Assembly: GCA_012517155.1 (NCBI GenBank)
Contig: JAAYVN010000118.1
Span: forward strand, 62,001-126,000
Source of the DNA: Ignavibacteriales bacterium
GTDB taxonomy: Bacteria > Bacteroidota > Ignavibacteria > Ignavibacteriales > Ignavibacteriaceae
DNA length: 64,000 nucleotides
Direction of reading: 5' to 3'
Part shown: piece after piece, positions 13,026 through 22,335 of the stretch
Numbering within the stretch: the first letter of the stretch is position 1
How the letters are laid out: each line of letters begins with the position of its first letter
The notes under the pieces: generated by a model
The model's database searches: none
What the model was told of the DNA's origin: nothing
Seen by the model: the letters and a program-made list of their open reading frames with translations, nothing else
Program-made: the position numbers and the translations under genes

Positions 13026-13787
13026 CTATACTCCTTTGATTCTTTCTTTATACATTGCAAGTGCTTCAGATAATCTTTCACGAGCGGTTGTATCGCCGGG
13101 GACATTGTGAGAAGGATGAATATAGAGTTTAACCCCTCGGTCAGCAAGAATCTCGGCAACCGTTGTCACAGTCATCCATACAGCGGTCACAAAAGCCATA
13201 GTCGATACCGGACCGATCTTGTCATAATGATTTTTTAATTCTACACTGGCATCCTGTATTGGAACACATGTATCCACAATTATATCAGCTATTTCGAAAA
13301 TTGTCTTTCCGGAGCTATGTCTGGTTTGTTTTCCTTCGGCTTCTTTTGCACTCCCGAAAACAATAACTTTCATCCCTCTTTTCTTTGATTCAAGAGCTAT
13401 ATCAATATTAACTGCATTAATCCCTGTATGTGAGAAAATCCACATACAATCTTCCTTATCAAAATTCCAACCTTTCATTATTTCTTGTCCGTATCCTTCC
13501 ACTCTTTCAAGAAAAACAAACTCATGAACATTCATTCCTCCTACTATATTCGTAAAAAATGTTAAGGGGAGTTCAATCATTGGGTGAAATCCAACAAATC
13601 CACCGATTCTTGGGTACATTTCTTCAATAGGTAGTGTTGCATGACCACATCCAAATGTGTGTACCCATTTCCCCTTTTCTATAGAATCAGCCATTGCCAG
13701 GGCTGCATTCTTAATATTCTCAATTTGAGTCTTCTCTATTTTTTCCATAACGCTTCGTGCGTTCTCAATCCATTGTAATGCTAACAT
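13026..13787 (-). CDS. SIS-domain sugar isomerase-like protein (UPF0309 type)
   Basis: A 253-residue protein of the SIS (sugar isomerase) fold, which binds phosphorylated sugars; it resembles the uncharacterised UPF0309 group. Residues 1-35 form the usual N-terminal helix, followed by WVHTFGCGHATLPIEEMYPRI, the phosphosugar loop region, and a second half with IFSHTGINAVNIDIALESKKRG. It may be an isomerase, a phosphosugar lyase/etherase or a sensor; I cannot tell which. It is the last gene of a minus-strand run MFS carrier, ROK kinase, MFS carrier, SIS protein, starting 24 nt after the preceding gene, so it probably acts on the sugar phosphate made by the ROK kinase. Confidence 0.8.
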   Translation of the reverse strand: MLALQWIENARSVMEKIEKTQIENIKNAALAMADSIEKGKWVHTFGCGHATLPIEEMYPRIGGFVGFHPMIELPLTFFTNIVGGMNVHEFVFLERVEGYGQEIMKGWNFDKEDCMWIFSHTGINAVNIDIALESKKRGMKVIVFGSAKEAEGKQTRHSSGKTIFEIADIIVDTCVPIQDASVELKNHYDKIGPVSTMAFVTAVWMTVTTVAEILADRGVKLYIHPSHNVPGDTTARERLSEALAMYKERIKGV

Positions 13788-13811
13788 ATTATCATCCTAT
13801 TATTTTCTTGT

Positions 13812-14975
13812 TTATTCTTTTGTTAATGACTTTCTTTCAAGTATACTGAATATTAAAAACATTATAACCACACTAATTAAAATTATCACCGAATAATATT
13901 TAATTCCAATACTCTCTGCGACAAATCCTGTTAAATAATTAAGCACGGTATTGCCGGTTAGAGCAATAACAAAAACAAGACTGAATGCTGTTCCGGAGAT
14001 TGAGGCAAATTTATCTGCGACATAACTTAATATTATGGGGAAACCTGCCGCAAAACCAATTCCGAAAAATATCAATCCGATAATTGTAAAAAGATAATTC
14101 CCACCAAGAATCAGTATTAAAGATCCTAAAGCTACTATTATAAGACTCATATAGATGACATAAGACCTGGATAGGGATTTCAGTATGTAGCTAAGAACAA
14201 GTCTCATTGCAGTCAGTGCCAAAACTAAATAAGTTAATGCAAAAAGTGCCTGTTCAGGAGAAACCATCAGATATTTTTCCATATAAGTTGTTGTCCAGTT
14301 ATTCGCTATACCCTCAATACCACTCTGGAAGAAAAGAAAGAACCCGAACAACAATAAAATTGGATTATTAAAAAGCTTGATTCCCTGTTTAATCGGAAGT
14401 CCTTGGGGATGTTTGGGAGGCGGAAATTTTATTATTAGGTTATACAATAGCAAGATAAGTAGAAATACACAAACGGCTGCAACAATTTGTTGATACTGAT
14501 ATCTACCTGAAAAGAAACCTAAAATCACCGGAAGACCAAGAGCACCAAGGCCATAGAAAACTCCTAAGAAACTAAGTTTTGCACCTTTCGAATCTCCGGA
14601 AATATCTGCAACAAGAGCATTAGTTCCTCCATTGATTACTCCACCTCCTAACCCGATTAAAAGAATAGATAACTGCAATAGAGTAAAACTACTTGATTCA
14701 ACCATGCCGTATAAGCCGATTATAACAAAAAGTGAACAGATTGTTAGTAGGATTTTATAACCGTACTTGTCCACAATTGGTCCAAACGTTAATGAACCGA
14801 GTAGAATTCCGATGGGCAGTAATGCCACTACTGCTCCTGCTGAATAACCCGTTAGTGTAAACTTTTCAGTTAGATTTGGCAGCATAGCACCTATGCTTGT
14901 CATTGATATTCCAAATGTTAGCATACCTGTATATGCAGCAATAAAGACATAACTATTTTTATATTCTTTTTCCAT
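13812..14975 (-). CDS. MFS transporter, probable sugar carrier
   Basis: Major facilitator with about 12 helices, 387 aa. The MFS motif between helices 2 and 3 is seen as FGPIVDKYGYK, and each half begins with a typical helix (FTLTGYSAGAVVALLPIGI; FFQSGIEGIANNWTT). It is a close paralog of the carrier at 16020-17174: both share LTGYSAG, SGDSKGAKLSFLGVFYGLGALGLP versus the matching segment, and GTAFSLVFVIALTGN. It lies 2 nt downstream of the ROK kinase gene on the same strand, so import and phosphorylation of a sugar is the likely joint role. Substrate unknown. Confidence 0.85.
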   Translation of the reverse strand: MEKEYKNSYVFIAAYTGMLTFGISMTSIGAMLPNLTEKFTLTGYSAGAVVALLPIGILLGSLTFGPIVDKYGYKILLTICSLFVIIGLYGMVESSSFTLLQLSILLIGLGGGVINGGTNALVADISGDSKGAKLSFLGVFYGLGALGLPVILGFFSGRYQYQQIVAAVCVFLLILLLYNLIIKFPPPKHPQGLPIKQGIKLFNNPILLLFGFFLFFQSGIEGIANNWTTTYMEKYLMVSPEQALFALTYLVLALTAMRLVLSYILKSLSRSYVIYMSLIIVALGSLILILGGNYLFTIIGLIFFGIGFAAGFPIILSYVADKFASISGTAFSLVFVIALTGNTVLNYLTGFVAESIGIKYYSVIILISVVIMFLIFSILERKSLTKE

Positions 14976-14977
14976 GT

Positions 14978-15931
14978 TTAATTCTTTTTAAGTGGTAAGT
15001 ATCCGGCTCCATATAGCCCTGCATCACTCCCAAGAGCAGATTCCGTCAACTTGACAAGTTTTATCGACCAAGGTTGTGCCCATTTTACTGCCTCATTAAA
15101 TATTTCTGGGATAAATCTGTTTGCTGGCCCAAATATCCCTCCTCCCATAATGATTATTTCAGGATTAAAAAGACTTACATAATTGGCTATTGCCATTCCC
15201 CATAATTCAATTGCATTTTCTATAACTTTTATTGCAATAGGATCTTTGTTATCATATGCATGAAACACATCCTTTCCCGAAATCTCATCTGGATTTATTT
15301 CCTTAAAATAACCTGTATAAAATTTTTCAGCTTTCAATAAATCCGCTGCTTTTCGTCCTAATCCCGCTCCTGACGCAGAATACTCAAAACATCCACATGA
15401 AACATATTTTTTATCATATGGTCTTTCAAGAGCGAGCCATCCTGTTGCACCGGCAATATCATTAGCTCCTCTAAGTATTTCACCGTTGACTAATATTCCC
15501 AAACCTATCCCGGTTCCAACAGCCATGTAAATTGCATTCTTAGCTCCTGTTGCAGCTCCCTTCCACACTTCACCAAGAATATAACAAGCCCGATCGCTAT
15601 CTATGTGAACGGGAATTTGGTCCACTGATTTTATCCCTTTAACCTTATCATACAGAGGATAGTCATCCCATCCGTGAATATTGGGAGCCCATACTGTTTT
15701 CCTGTCAGACCAATAAATTCCGGGTATACAAATACCGATACCAGAAATCTGCTTTTCTTTATTTTTGACAAATTCGATTTGTTTTGTTAATATTTCTTCC
15801 ACTATTTCGAAAACTCCTTCACTCGTTTTTCCACTGATAGAGATTATCAGTCTATTTTCGGAAAAACCTTCCCTGTCGAAAACCGAAGATGAAATTTTTG
15901 TACCCCCTATGTCAATTCCAATTGAATTCAT
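14978..15931 (-). CDS. ROK-family sugar kinase with degenerate zinc site
   Basis: ATP-dependent hexose kinase of the ROK family (glucokinase, fructokinase, GlcNAc or ManNAc kinases). The N-terminal ATP motif GIDIGGTK and the second nucleotide motif VGTGIGLGILVNG are present, as is the catalytic Asp in HIDSDRACYILGE. The usual zinc-binding motif (GExGH...CxCGxxGCxE) is eroded: the His position reads GATGWLALE and the cysteines are reduced to SCGCFE. 317 aa, normal. No helix-turn-helix domain, so it is an enzyme rather than a ROK repressor. Flanked by two paralogous sugar carriers and followed by a SIS protein. A GlcNAc-type substrate would fit the nearby nagB but is inference. Confidence 0.85.
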   Translation of the reverse strand: MNSIGIDIGGTKISSSVFDREGFSENRLIISISGKTSEGVFEIVEEILTKQIEFVKNKEKQISGIGICIPGIYWSDRKTVWAPNIHGWDDYPLYDKVKGIKSVDQIPVHIDSDRACYILGEVWKGAATGAKNAIYMAVGTGIGLGILVNGEILRGANDIAGATGWLALERPYDKKYVSCGCFEYSASGAGLGRKAADLLKAEKFYTGYFKEINPDEISGKDVFHAYDNKDPIAIKVIENAIELWGMAIANYVSLFNPEIIIMGGGIFGPANRFIPEIFNEAVKWAQPWSIKLVKLTESALGSDAGLYGAGYLPLKKN

Positions 15932-16019
15932 GAAAACCTATTAAATTATTATTTAAATATAGTGAATATTGAACTCATTTTTATCCACATTATTTATTTT
16001 CAATAACCAAATTTATCCT

Positions 16020-17174
16020 TTACTTCATACTCATTTTACTATTCAGGTTATAAAGGAGGAAAAACATTATGAATACACATGCTATTATAAGTATTGAGAT
16101 ATATTGGATACCAAATGTATCACTTATCACTCCGGCTATTATATTCATAATCATACTCCCCGATAGAGCAATAACAAATATAAGACTAAAGGCTGTACCT
16201 GAGATACTCTGATAATTGTCCCCTACAAAACTAAGAATAATAGGGAATCCCCCCGCAAAACCAAATCCCATTAAAACCAATCCGGTAATCGTCGTGTAAT
16301 AATTATTGATAGAAAATATTATTACTGCACCAGAAATTACTATGATTAACCCCACTTGCAATAATCGAAAACGAGTAAAATGCTTAAGTAAAAAACTAAT
16401 AAGAAATCTTCCAATTGTTAGAGCTAAAATTAAAAAAAACAGTGCTGCGAGAGCGCTATTATAATTGTCGATTCTTGTTTTTTGGATTAAGGTAGTTATC
16501 CAGGTACCTGCAACTCCTTCCATACCGCTTTGAAAAAACAGAAAAAAAGCGAAAAGCAGAAGCAAAGGATTATTAATTAATTTCAGGATTTCACTTAAAG
16601 GAAGTCCCATATTCTTTTTGGCTACTGGAAATGTTATAAACACTAGTAGAAGTGCTAATAGAAATAAACTTATGGAAATAATCAGAAAGACTTCTCGAAT
16701 ACTTACAACTGATGAAAAAACACTAAGCATAAAAGGTAATCCAAGAGCACCAATGCCATAAAATGCATGTAAAAGACTAAGTCTTGATTTCTTTTTCTCC
16801 CCTGATATATCTGAAACAAGTGAATTTGCCGTACCATTAATTATTCCATTTCCAGCACCTATTAATAATACTGAAATTCTAAGAATATCAACTGATGAAG
16901 TTGATGACAATCCGTATAAACCTGTTATCACTGTAATTGATGCGACAAACATAAGGAGTTTATATCCGAATCTGTCAACTATAGGTCCAAAGATTATTGA
17001 TCCAATGGTAATCCCGAGCGGCATAATCGACGCTACTGTACCAGCTGAATAACCCGTTAGACGAAATTTATCAATCAACTGAGGGAGTATTGCTCCGATA
17101 ATTGTCGTTGAAATACCATATATAACCATAGCAAAGAAAGCCGCAAAATAAAAGAGCGATTTATTTCTGTTCAT
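16020..17174 (-). CDS. MFS transporter, paralog of the carrier at 13812
   Basis: Major facilitator of 384 aa with about 12 helices; motif FGPIVDRFGYK follows helix 2 and FFQSGMEGVAGTWITT begins the second half. The pattern of identities with the carrier at 13812-14975 along the full length points to a duplication; the ROK kinase lies between the copies. The gap of 88 nt before the ROK gene contains no terminator that I can see. Substrate unknown; two carriers for related sugars, or one for the free sugar and one for a derivative, would be plausible. Confidence 0.85.
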   Translation of the reverse strand: MNRNKSLFYFAAFFAMVIYGISTTIIGAILPQLIDKFRLTGYSAGTVASIMPLGITIGSIIFGPIVDRFGYKLLMFVASITVITGLYGLSSTSSVDILRISVLLIGAGNGIINGTANSLVSDISGEKKKSRLSLLHAFYGIGALGLPFMLSVFSSVVSIREVFLIISISLFLLALLLVFITFPVAKKNMGLPLSEILKLINNPLLLLFAFFLFFQSGMEGVAGTWITTLIQKTRIDNYNSALAALFFLILALTIGRFLISFLLKHFTRFRLLQVGLIIVISGAVIIFSINNYYTTITGLVLMGFGFAGGFPIILSFVGDNYQSISGTAFSLIFVIALSGSMIMNIIAGVISDTFGIQYISILIIACVFIMFFLLYNLNSKMSMK

Positions 17175-17316: not shown

Positions 17317-17772
17317 ATGAATTCGGACATTATAGCAAATAAAGAATATGATCCTGCGATGCATACTGCAGAGCATATCTTAAACCAGACCATGATTAGA
17401 ATGTTTAACTGTGGAAGGGCTTTCAGTGCACATATTGAAAAGAAAAAGTCTAAATGTGATTATCGGTTTGAGAGGGACTTAAGTGAAAATGAATTAAAAG
17501 AAATCGAACTTCGTGTAAATGAAGTAATTTCCGGAAACCATCCTGTGTATGAAGAATTTATATTACGCGATGAAGCAGCAAAACATTTTACACTCGACCG
17601 ACTGCCTGAGACCGCAGGAGAAAGACTGCGTATTATTAAAGTAGGCAATTACGACAGTTGTCTATGCAGCGGGAAACATGTTGCGAATACTTCGGAAATC
17701 CGAACTTTTAAGATTATTTCTTCGAGCTACGAGAACGGTAAACTGAGAATTCGCTTTAAACTCCTAGATTAA
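17317..17772 (+). CDS. AlaX-like tRNA editing protein
   Basis: Free-standing relative of the editing domain of alanyl- and threonyl-tRNA synthetases, expected to hydrolyse mischarged tRNA (for example Ser-tRNA-Ala). The four zinc ligands are visible: His16 and His20 in HTAEH, and Cys117 and His121 in CSGKH, followed by the conserved VANTSEI. At 151 aa it is a short form without the N-terminal glycine-rich beta-barrel. The ATG at 17317 has TGAGG five bases upstream. The gene stands alone on the plus strand, divergent from the MFS carrier, and its last 17 nt overlap tail to tail with the end of the STAS-kinase gene. Confidence 0.88.
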   Translation: MNSDIIANKEYDPAMHTAEHILNQTMIRMFNCGRAFSAHIEKKKSKCDYRFERDLSENELKEIELRVNEVISGNHPVYEEFILRDEAAKHFTLDRLPETAGERLRIIKVGNYDSCLCSGKHVANTSEIRTFKIISSSYENGKLRIRFKLLD

Positions 17773-20044
17773 TCAGATTCTCAATTTCCAAAATTTTTTC
17801 TGTTATCAGTGCACAACTAATCATAGAATATCTTTTCCTATGATTATTCAGACCATAGTATACAACTACCGGGAGGCTCCATTCCAACATAGCTATCAGG
17901 TATGGTACTATCGACTTCTCAAATAACGAAACTGTTGAGGCATATTCACGCATTTTTAATATCAACTTATAACCCTTTTCAACCTCAGGATCATTTCCGG
18001 TATAGCAGAATTCAGGTTTGTCTTTAATACTATCACACTTCATCAAAGCCGTTTCAAAATCAATAATGTGATTCATACTTTCTTTACTCTCAATATTAAA
18101 GTATTCAAATTTAATTATGGGTTCAAGACGCGAAAAATCTGATACTGCATTTCTGTATTTAGTTTCTGAGAAATCAATTATATAAATATTCTCTTTTTCA
18201 TCTAGAAGAATATTTTGCAGATTTAAATCACCGTGGCAAATCCCCTTGTAACAAGTGAAAGATATTTTTTCCCTCTCCGCATAACCATATTTGAGAAAAT
18301 AGTAAGGGTTTGTTATTTCTCTTTTTAATTCTTCTACATAAATTTTTGGATCGTCCGCTGAGATTCCTAATTCTTCCTTTGCTTTGTCATAAATTATTGG
18401 AAAAAAATTAATAGGATTTTGTTCCTTAAAAAGATTGATATTGTCAAGTTTCGGTTGACCATACCATGGTTTTAGAATTCCTGTATAAACTTTTTCAAAA
18501 AGTGGCAATACTTCATCAAATGTTCTTTCATTATATAACTTTCTGAGCCATTTCAATTTTGTGCTCCCGGTTATTCCAAGAAAGTTATACCTGATTCCTC
18601 CGAAATCACTATAGTAAAATGCTCCCATTACTGTGGATGCGTTATTAAGAATAAATTTCTTAACGTACATCTCAAAATTATCTTCCTCCCGTTTAATTAT
18701 AGCAGAGTTACTTAATTTAAGCACAGTAGGGAGTATTTTAGCTCCATTTTTATCCTCACCGAATACCTGAAATGTTCTAGCTGAAAATCCCCCAAACAAA
18801 GGAGTCATCTGTATTCTGGAACAATCTGAGTATATACGTCTTACGATTATTTCGAATTCATCAGTCAGATCATATTCTTTAAGATTCTCAATTTCAAGAG
18901 ATTGCAGTAATGGCTTTATTTCCTTATGATTAAAGAAATATACTCTCCCTGATTGAAACTCGTTGTTTTCACTTCCTTGTTCAACACCTTTTACATTTTG
19001 AAAAGTTAAAAGATTTTTTAAGTCATTTGATATTTTATGCTGTGGAGAAAGCTCTTTACTGAATTTAAGCAGGACATCTATTTGTCCTGCACAAAGATAT
19101 TCGGTACAGTTAAAGAAATGAAATATTTCTTTTAGTTGTTTTAAGTTTTCTATCTGAGTTTCGGACAAAGTCGTTTTGTTAATCAACATCCCGGTTCCAA
19201 TAATCCATTCTTCTTCACTTTCCTCTTCCGTTTTAGTTGTTTTGCCAAAAAAAACGTATGAAACGAATGAGGATTCCGGAGTGATTTCATCGCCCACAAT
19301 ATTATTCATATTTGTTAGAATATTCTTAAGGGGAATGCTACTTTTGGCAAAAAAATCTATACAATAATTTGGTTCTGTCGAAAAACTAACAACTTCTTTC
19401 AGGAATAAAAAAACATCCTCTTTTTTCTCAATAAAAAGATAGTCGGATTCAGTATCTCCATTAGATTTCTGGATTCCTAGGAAATCCCCAATCGTGAAAA
19501 TCAAGTTATTGTTCTCTATTTCCGATTTATTTAATCCTAGTCCCCCTCTTCCTAAAGAAAACTTTAGTTCTTCAATTGAAAAAACTTTAAATTCATCATT
19601 ATTATCTTCCGGGAGCATTACTTTGAGAGGTGAAAAAGAATCGGAAAGTTTAAAGGAATGATACTGACAGTCATTTATCTCAACCGATTTGTTTTTAACT
19701 TCAAACTTCAAGTGTTTACTTATTACTTCTCTTGATTCCGTTAGGTCCCTGGCTATTGTTAAAGCACTTTTTAATCCGGTCATAGTAAAAACTTGATTTA
19801 CTGATTGGTTAAGGGAACAAAGTACAATAATACCACCCGATATTTTGGAATCCTTTTCAAGTTTCAAAATATCACGAATTCCAGCACTTGAGAGATACTT
19901 AACATCTGAAAAGTCAATAATTATGTGTTTTTGTCCTGAATATTTAACCATTGATTTTTCGAATTCAATTGATCCGAGCGAATCAAATTTTCCACTAAGT
20001 TTAATAACTAATACTTCATTTGAAAATTCAAAGTCTATCTGCAT
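17756..20044 (-). CDS. STAS domain fused to an APH-like phosphotransferase
   Basis: A 762-residue multidomain protein I cannot assign to a described system. Residues 1-100 form a STAS domain (anti-anti-sigma type) with YLSSAGIRDIL near 50-60, where Ser53 aligns with the phosphorylatable Ser of SpoIIAA. Residues about 105-390 are an unrecognised region that includes FSLGRGGLGLN and IGDFLGIQ. Residues about 400-762 look like an aminoglycoside/choline phosphotransferase fold: FGGFSARTFQVFG, VLKL with a candidate ATP Lys near 442, catalytic loop ICHGDLNLQNILL (His604, Asp606, Asn611) and metal Asp624 in YIIDFSE. No signal peptide or membrane segment. GGAGG precedes the ATG. Small-molecule phosphorylation controlled through STAS, or a protein kinase-like role, is inference. 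Confidence 0.8.
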   Translation of the reverse strand: MQIDFEFSNEVLVIKLSGKFDSLGSIEFEKSMVKYSGQKHIIIDFSDVKYLSSAGIRDILKLEKDSKISGGIIVLCSLNQSVNQVFTMTGLKSALTIARDLTESREVISKHLKFEVKNKSVEINDCQYHSFKLSDSFSPLKVMLPEDNNDEFKVFSIEELKFSLGRGGLGLNKSEIENNNLIFTIGDFLGIQKSNGDTESDYLFIEKKEDVFLFLKEVVSFSTEPNYCIDFFAKSSIPLKNILTNMNNIVGDEITPESSFVSYVFFGKTTKTEEESEEEWIIGTGMLINKTTLSETQIENLKQLKEIFHFFNCTEYLCAGQIDVLLKFSKELSPQHKISNDLKNLLTFQNVKGVEQGSENNEFQSGRVYFFNHKEIKPLLQSLEIENLKEYDLTDEFEIIVRRIYSDCSRIQMTPLFGGFSARTFQVFGEDKNGAKILPTVLKLSNSAIIKREEDNFEMYVKKFILNNASTVMGAFYYSDFGGIRYNFLGITGSTKLKWLRKLYNERTFDEVLPLFEKVYTGILKPWYGQPKLDNINLFKEQNPINFFPIIYDKAKEELGISADDPKIYVEELKREITNPYYFLKYGYAEREKISFTCYKGICHGDLNLQNILLDEKENIYIIDFSETKYRNAVSDFSRLEPIIKFEYFNIESKESMNHIIDFETALMKCDSIKDKPEFCYTGNDPEVEKGYKLILKMREYASTVSLFEKSIVPYLIAMLEWSLPVVVYYGLNNHRKRYSMISCALITEKILEIENLINLGV

Positions 20045-20106
20045 AATGCCTCCGGTAAATATTTCAGTGATTTGAACATAAATATATTAAAAAAGTATTT
20101 GTGATA

Positions 20107-21543: not shown

Positions 21544-22335
21544 ATGAGGTTAATAATTCAACCAAGTTATGACAAGGTTTCAAAATGGGCAGCGAATTAC
21601 GTCGCCTCAAGAATCAATGAGTTTCACCCTAATGCAAGGAAGAGGTTTGTTCTTGGCCTCCCTACCGGTTCTTCACCTATCGGTATGTATGCCGAACTGA
21701 TAAAAATCTATAAAGCAAAAAAGGTTTCGTTCAAATATGTTACCACTTTCAATATGGACGAATATGTGAATCTCCCTGAGAACCATTCCGAGAGCTACCA
21801 TTCTTTTATGTGGAGCAATTTCTTCTCTCATATTGATATAGATAAAAAATTCGTTAATATCTTAAACGGTAATGCCGGAGACCTTGAAAAAGAATGTATT
21901 AACTACGAAAAGAAAATTAAGGCAGCCGGAGGAATTAATCTATTTGTTGGCGGAATAGGTCCGGATGGTCATATCGCTTTCAATGAACCCGCATCTTCTC
22001 TTGGTTCGCTAACACGCGTTAAGACTCTTACTATGGACACAATAATAGCTAATTCCAGATTCTTTGATAACGATATTAATAAAGTCCCCAAACAGGCTCT
22101 TACTGTTGGAGTTAAGACTGTTCTGGATGCTCAGGAAGTCCTGATTATTATTAGCGGACATAATAAAGCCCGCGCGCTCGCAAAAGTTGTCGAGGAAGGT
22201 GTAAATCACATGTGGACAGTCAGTGCATTGCAGCTGCACCCAAAGGGAATTATCGTGTGTGATGATGCCGCAACCGTGGAATTAAAAGTCGGAACGGTCA
22301 ATTATTTCAAAGATATCGAAGCCCAGAACCTCTAA
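21544..22335 (+). CDS. nagB: Glucosamine-6-phosphate deaminase
   Basis: Converts glucosamine 6-phosphate to fructose 6-phosphate and ammonia. The 263-residue protein is of NagB length and keeps the family motifs: phosphate loop [11 protein letters not shown], the catalytic Asp in FNMDEYV near residue 72, and [16 protein letters not shown] with the ring-opening His. A GGAG sequence lies eight bases before the ATG. Together with the preceding alternative GlmU it links amino-sugar breakdown and cell-wall sugar nucleotide supply. It is last in its transcript and convergent with the acyl-CoA ligase gene. Confidence 0.94.

Follow-up and report, generated by a model that had tools for sequence, protein, structure and literature searches.

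The best-known role of partner switching is the control of sigma factors, and the majority of the known kinases of the APH superfamily use small-molecule substrates. MlaB is a STAS protein that acts on the ABC ATPase MlaF (PMC7367683). TCAD9 stands for ternary complex associated domain 9 (legend in PMC10910872), a name that comes from NTP-dependent ternary conflict systems. Kaur et al. 2020 noted that APH-like kinases of the active kind occur in conflict systems that depend on NTP, and that certain kinase domains of conflict systems have lost catalysis (PMC7159879). The gene analysed here lies in a 64,000-nucleotide stretch of Ignavibacteriales DNA (the window), and it joins a STAS domain, a middle region and a kinase domain in one chain. 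The three-part fusion of 762 residues claimed in the earlier note was confirmed by the open reading frame and the profile matches, and the same domain order occurs in a second genome.

The gene is a single intact open reading frame on the minus strand, and its ATG is preceded by a good ribosome-binding site (Table 1). At its 3' side lies a convergent gene with a tRNA-editing domain (17317–17772), and the two 3' ends overlap by 17 bases. This neighbour encodes a 151-residue protein with the tRNA_SAD domain. At the 5' side the gene diverges from a sugar-nucleotidyltransferase-like gene (20228). With one convergent and one divergent neighbour, it is therefore transcribed alone. Pfam assigned the seven flanking genes to SIS, MFS (two genes), ROK, tRNA_SAD, sugar nucleotidyltransferase and NagB-type families. 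Neither RsbW, SpoIIE nor sigma genes were found among the flanking genes (Pfam, and open frames by eye), in agreement with the earlier statement that no sigma or anti-sigma gene is adjacent. Nor were vWA, MoxR or VMAP genes found beside it (Pfam on the seven flanking genes, other open frames of positions 1–36000 by eye). Between 13026 and 17174, two similar MFS transporters flank a ROK kinase and a SIS-domain sugar isomerase, with the NagB-type gene at 21544; the stretch 13026–17174 is likely a sugar or amino-sugar uptake cluster. These MFS, ROK, SIS and NagB-type genes lie outside the transcription unit of the 762-residue gene.

Table 1. Positions in the window of the gene and of its domains and key residues.
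Feature	Position	Strand	Basis
Whole gene, STAS / ALDC-like / TCAD9 kinase, 762 residues	17756..20044	-	Open reading frame, profiles, G016 homologue over residues 3–759
Shine-Dalgarno-like GGAGG	20049..20053	-	4 bases before the ATG (20044)
STAS domain, residues 1–104, RsbV/SpoIIAA type	19733..20044	-	PF01740, TIGR00377, Foldseek
Ser53 codon, candidate phospho-acceptor	19886..19888	-	Alignments
Middle, residues 105–390, putative degenerate ALDC-fold (X) domain	18875..19732	-	hhalign to 12 STAS-X proteins; ALDC match of the X model
His309, sole kept position of the HxH pair of X (second His replaced by Phe)	19118..19120	-	Alignment
TCAD9 / APH-superfamily kinase, residues 391–762	17759..18874	-	PF19974, PF01636, Foldseek
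Lys443, ATP-site lysine (VLKL)	18716..18718	-	Conserved in 7/7
Catalytic loop H604-G-D606-LNLQ-N611	18212..18235	-	Conserved in 7/7
Asp624, metal-binding Asp of the DFS motif	18173..18175	-	Conserved in 7/7

A single other full-length copy was found, in genome G016. It is 37% identical over residues 3–759 and keeps the domain order, and on this comparison the 762-residue frame is a real gene. The architecture occurs in two of the 164 genomes of the order. A contig scan by two-sequence alignment, whose patterns were poor, returned the G016 genome alone. There were no matches in viral contigs and phages, and a search of plasmids returned STAS domains only. The architecture belongs to no named family and is very rare, and the catalytic residues of the kinase are kept in all the homologues compared; neither of the outcomes that the earlier note listed as refuting its proposal was thus seen. 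In G016 the gene closes an operon that also contains MalEF-like, MalG-like and sugar symporter (GPH-sucrose-type) genes, with gaps of around 20–40 bases between them. Identity between the two proteins is 51% in the kinase, 39% in the STAS domain and 17% in the middle. These values point to a constrained output and a fast-evolving sensor.

The STAS assignment comes from profiles and from structure comparison. PF01740 matches residues 3–101 (E 5e-13), and TIGR00377 matches the domain with 57 bits against a cut-off of 53.45. The predicted model of the whole protein is of moderate quality (pLDDT 63), and its STAS part matched SpoIIAA (1til_B, E 7e-8) and RsbV (6m36_B, TM 0.90) in Foldseek. Ser53 aligns with the SpoIIAA position occupied by Ser in 1th8 and by Ala in 1tid and 1til. 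The residue is Ser in the G016 homologue as well, and in all 11 of the STAS-X proteins (described below) in which the STAS domain is covered. Judged from its sequence, this is a STAS domain of the RsbV/SpoIIAA type with Ser53 as a candidate phosphoserine, as had been proposed (PF01740, TIGR00377 and the SpoIIAA alignment agree).

The two ends matched Pfam families (STAS, PF01740, and APH, PF01636), and residues 105–390 had no Pfam match. Searches for close relatives retrieved kinase-free STAS proteins of approximately 400 residues with a further domain, called X here, and 12 of these (STAS-X) were collected. Over 216 columns, the X profile built from the 12 proteins aligned end to end with the middles of both full-length proteins (hhalign, P 8.4e-5), and none of 150 column shuffles did as well. 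An earlier profile of four STAS-X sequences had matched the window middle weakly (P 0.025, 3 of 200 shuffles). By these profiles the middle is akin to the X domain and colinear with it after the STAS domain. A PP2C/SpoIIE fold was first suspected for this region; the fold search gave alpha-acetolactate decarboxylase (ALDC). The AlphaFold model of X from the G046 protein (pLDDT 76, pTM 0.79) had six Foldseek matches below 0.001, all of them to ALDCs, the best being 1xv2_C (E 2e-7, TM 0.60 by target). A profile of 19 ALDC-family sequences matched that of the 12 X domains at the expected place (P 0.0015, 0 of 150 shuffles), and one STAS-X protein (G271) matched the ALDC profile directly (0 of 200 shuffles). 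We therefore predict an ALDC fold for X.

Compared directly with the ALDC profile, the window's own middle showed no signal, since 99 of 200 shuffles scored at least as well, and the result was the same with A4 alone, so the link to ALDC runs via the STAS-X family. In the comparison of A7 with ALDC, 1 of 100 column shuffles scored 136, unlike all the others and unexplained, and A7 was given no weight. The model of the window protein has the same strand order as X; it is of low confidence there and shared alignment rows with STAS-X proteins. The fold match belongs to the X of a relative, and the window's own middle has a low-confidence model. X keeps the Glu of the GE motif and the HxH pair, and the third metal His of ALDC is absent from its place. 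In the window and G016 middles the Glu is replaced by Asp and the second His is lost (HxF/HxK). Degenerate as it is at the metal and catalytic positions, the window middle is probably a pseudo-enzyme serving sensing or docking. The earlier description of about 280 residues as an unknown region holds as far as Pfam is concerned, but an undescribed region was not supported, the middle being related to STAS-X proteins with a predicted decarboxylase fold. Elsewhere in the phylum, ALDC-family proteins at L144, L146, L151 and L152 are over-long (open frames of 520 and 438 residues) or carry HLHF without the GH of true ALDCs, and are possible further non-enzymatic ALDC-like proteins.

The surroundings of the STAS-X genes were identified with tblastn and Pfam/NCBIfam. 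An ABC permease of one family (BPD_transp_2 type) adjoins STAS-X in all 12 loci, and a substrate-binding protein is likewise encoded in 12 of 12, either as part of the permease chain or by its own gene. The ABC ATPase was seen in ten; the contigs of the remaining two loci stop short. A receiver-SpoIIE phosphatase gene lies near nine of the 12, and an RsbW-like gene is present in five. The STAS-X operon has the look of an importer equipped with a partner switch of its own. The conserved operon of STAS-decarboxylase-like protein, permease, substrate-binding protein and ATPase can be seen at L036:12000-16872 (source genome, G000:C58), L034, L035, L107 and L166-L173. The SpoIIE/ABC importer cluster of L034 also encodes, at 15848-17092, a protein of 414 residues that has a Schlafen AlbA_2 domain and matches the KaiA N-terminal domain weakly. 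The source genome has this one STAS-X operon, on a contig other than that of the window and with no SpoIIE gene beside it. It also has eight SpoIIE genes or domains and several RsbW-like genes, and on contigs C154 and C155 STAS, SpoIIE and RsbW-like genes lie close together. BPD_transp_2-type permease, SpoIIE and RsbW-like genes are absent from the window and G016 loci, and the G016 locus has a different ABC type.

The kinase domain belongs to a family that Pfam already names. PF19974 (TCAD9) matches the C-terminus in two stretches (E 1.3e-33) with 117.2 bits against a curated cut-off of 40, and PF01636 (APH) also exceeds its cut-off (E 1e-5). In Foldseek the kinase model matched APH(3')-Ia (2e-5) and choline kinase (1.2e-4). 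Residues K443, E453, H604, D606, N611, D624 and D636 do not vary among the seven TCAD9 proteins compared, and the glycine pair 418–419 is present in six, the seventh being gapped there. The intact APH-like catalytic loop of the earlier note (His604, Asp606, Asn611, Asp624) is thereby confirmed. Its suggestion of an undescribed system survives for the full-length architecture, which is unnamed, but not for the kinase. TCAD9 matches above the cut-off occur in six of 396 genomes of the phylum; within the order, relatives of the kinase domain were found in the source genome and G016 only (164 genomes).

All the TCAD9 relatives compared (window, G016 and L071–L075) exceed the PF19974 cut-off and have the full catalytic set, and they differ in the inputs that are fused to the kinase or lie beside it. 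The L071 protein has a receiver domain as input (PF00072, 5e-6, just below its cut-off). Those of L073 and L074 have a receiver-like stretch, recognised by eye, and are coupled to SMC-like ATPase genes. The L072 protein has a long N-terminal region, isochorismatase-like by eye, and lies amid an Rsb-type cluster, and at L075 a stand-alone TCAD9 gene adjoins a cytidylyltransferase-NB-ARC protein. One kinase with many inputs is the pattern of an output domain.

Several of these loci have features of their own. L072:8767-19399 holds the TCAD9 kinase within a large SpoIIE/RsbW-like/STAS cluster, followed by an inositol-monophosphatase-family gene. L073:3423-7315 and L074:9411-13273 are two-gene units of an approximately 640-residue SMC/AAA-type ATPase and the TCAD9 protein, and these ATPases match several defence-system ATPases in PADLOC. 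The cytidylyltransferase protein of L075:9181-13582 also has NB-ARC and TPR parts, and with the adjoining kinase the locus looks like a conflict system. The L071 relative adjoins type I restriction genes. A plasmid search with the other TCAD9 proteins gave either no match or, for the C-terminal tail of the L072 protein, partial matches annotated as NUDIX.

The reading that we prefer, tentatively and with a probability of roughly 45%, is a cytosolic sensor-gated TCAD9 kinase whose STAS-pseudodecarboxylase input is under the control of RsbW-type kinases and SpoIIE phosphatases acting in trans. The output would be catalytically active, an ATP-dependent APH-superfamily phosphotransferase whose substrate is most likely a small molecule. 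At the input, Ser53 would be phosphorylated by RsbW-type kinases and dephosphorylated by SpoIIE-type phosphatases. The state of Ser53 and the binding of a ligand or partner to the degenerate ALDC-like middle may jointly switch the kinase or determine its location. The STAS-X half would derive from, or share ancestry with, the family serving importers with their own partner switch. Through this kinship a link between the kinase and nutrient uptake is probable, and a sugar as the kinase's substrate is a guess. The occurrence of TCAD9 mostly without STAS, and of STAS-X mostly without a kinase and beside SpoIIE/RsbW-type genes, fits an input-plus-output protein with trans control of the STAS domain. 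Against this reading, conservation of context rests on two full-length proteins, the window gene stands by itself on its strand and has neither an RsbW nor a SpoIIE gene nearby, and TCAD9 was named from conflict systems, with several relatives adjoining defence-like genes.

The main rival, which we consider unlikely, is a kinase coupled to transport, in which the docking site of the STAS domain is a transporter, as MlaF is for MlaB, rather than an RsbW-type partner, and the incoming sugar is the substrate of the kinase. The MlaB precedent (PMC7367683), the ABC permease beside every STAS-X gene, the importer and symporter operon of G016, and the MFS, ROK, SIS and NagB neighbours in the window all fit it. 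However, the transcription unit of the window gene has no transporter gene, the sugar genes nearby already include a ROK kinase, and TCAD9 relatives elsewhere do not adjoin sugar transporters.

The self-contained switch named first in the earlier note, with the APH-like domain phosphorylating Ser53 of its own STAS domain, was not supported, and we consider it improbable. Both domains look functional and share one chain, but the two halves mostly live apart, with STAS-X beside SpoIIE/RsbW-type genes, so a cis switch is possible but not needed; the small-molecule substrates of most known APH-superfamily kinases also speak against it. Of the two readings offered there, a small-molecule phosphotransferase is the better guess. 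Equally improbable is a conflict or immunity effector, in which TCAD9 would be an activated toxin-like kinase and STAS-X its trigger. The origin of the TCAD9 name in conflict systems (PMC10910872), the APH-type kinases noted in such systems (PMC7159879), and the restriction, SMC-like ATPase and NB-ARC neighbours of L071, L073, L074 and L075 point in this direction; the metabolic neighbourhood of the window gene, the vWA, MoxR and VMAP genes not seen beside it, and PADLOC matches that are short, weak and limited to the catalytic loop point away from it. A pseudokinase scaffold that only binds a nucleotide or partner has a precedent in the conflict-system kinase domains without catalysis (PMC7159879) and is very improbable, given that none of the seven TCAD9 proteins compared lacks any of the Lys, Glu, HGD, Asn and DF/W/M motifs.

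Under the sensor-gated kinase reading, the window gene couples to a kinase the STAS-decarboxylase-like input module that relatives place in ABC importer operons together with a SpoIIE phosphatase and, in some cases, an RsbW-type kinase. If this is true, partner switching reaches nutrient uptake and small-molecule kinases, and TCAD9 gains a testable activity with a defined input, making its phosphorylation targets directly approachable. It is conceivable, though we hold it with more doubt than the reading itself, that the STAS and pseudo-decarboxylase sensor is a new signalling part, acting as a partner-switch subunit of importers or as the gate of a TCAD9 small-molecule kinase, so that partner switching directly controls transport and metabolite phosphorylation. 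No description of the three-part fusion or of the STAS-X importer family was found in the literature searched, which lies outside most subscription journals. The parts are of kinds that are known or can be recognised; what appears new is how they are combined, and the importer family of STAS-X.

Compared with the anti-sigma factor antagonists SpoIIAA and RsbV, the window protein has the same STAS fold and phospho-acceptor serine position, but it lacks an adjacent cognate RsbW or sigma gene and adds two domains. MlaB sets a precedent for the control of an ABC transporter by a STAS protein, but it consists of a minimal STAS domain and has no enzyme fused to it. The STAS-X proteins, a family unnamed in the libraries searched, have the STAS domain and the related colinear middle in common with the window protein; unlike it they lack the kinase, keep the Glu and HxH, and adjoin an ABC permease. 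With ALDC (PF03306; 1xv2, 5xne, 6j3d), X shares the predicted fold, the GxG...GE strand pair and the HxH; it differs in having no Pfam match and no third metal His (GGH), and the window middle also replaces the Glu and the second His. The kinase resembles APH(3')-Ia and choline kinase in its fold and catalytic loop, but identity in the fold search was 12–14%, and nothing points to an aminoglycoside or choline substrate. The C-terminal 370 residues exceed the curated cut-off of TCAD9 (PF19974) with a complete catalytic set; what distinguishes this kinase from the described family is its fusion to a STAS and an ALDC-like domain, in a metabolic neighbourhood rather than beside vWA-MoxR-VMAP genes.
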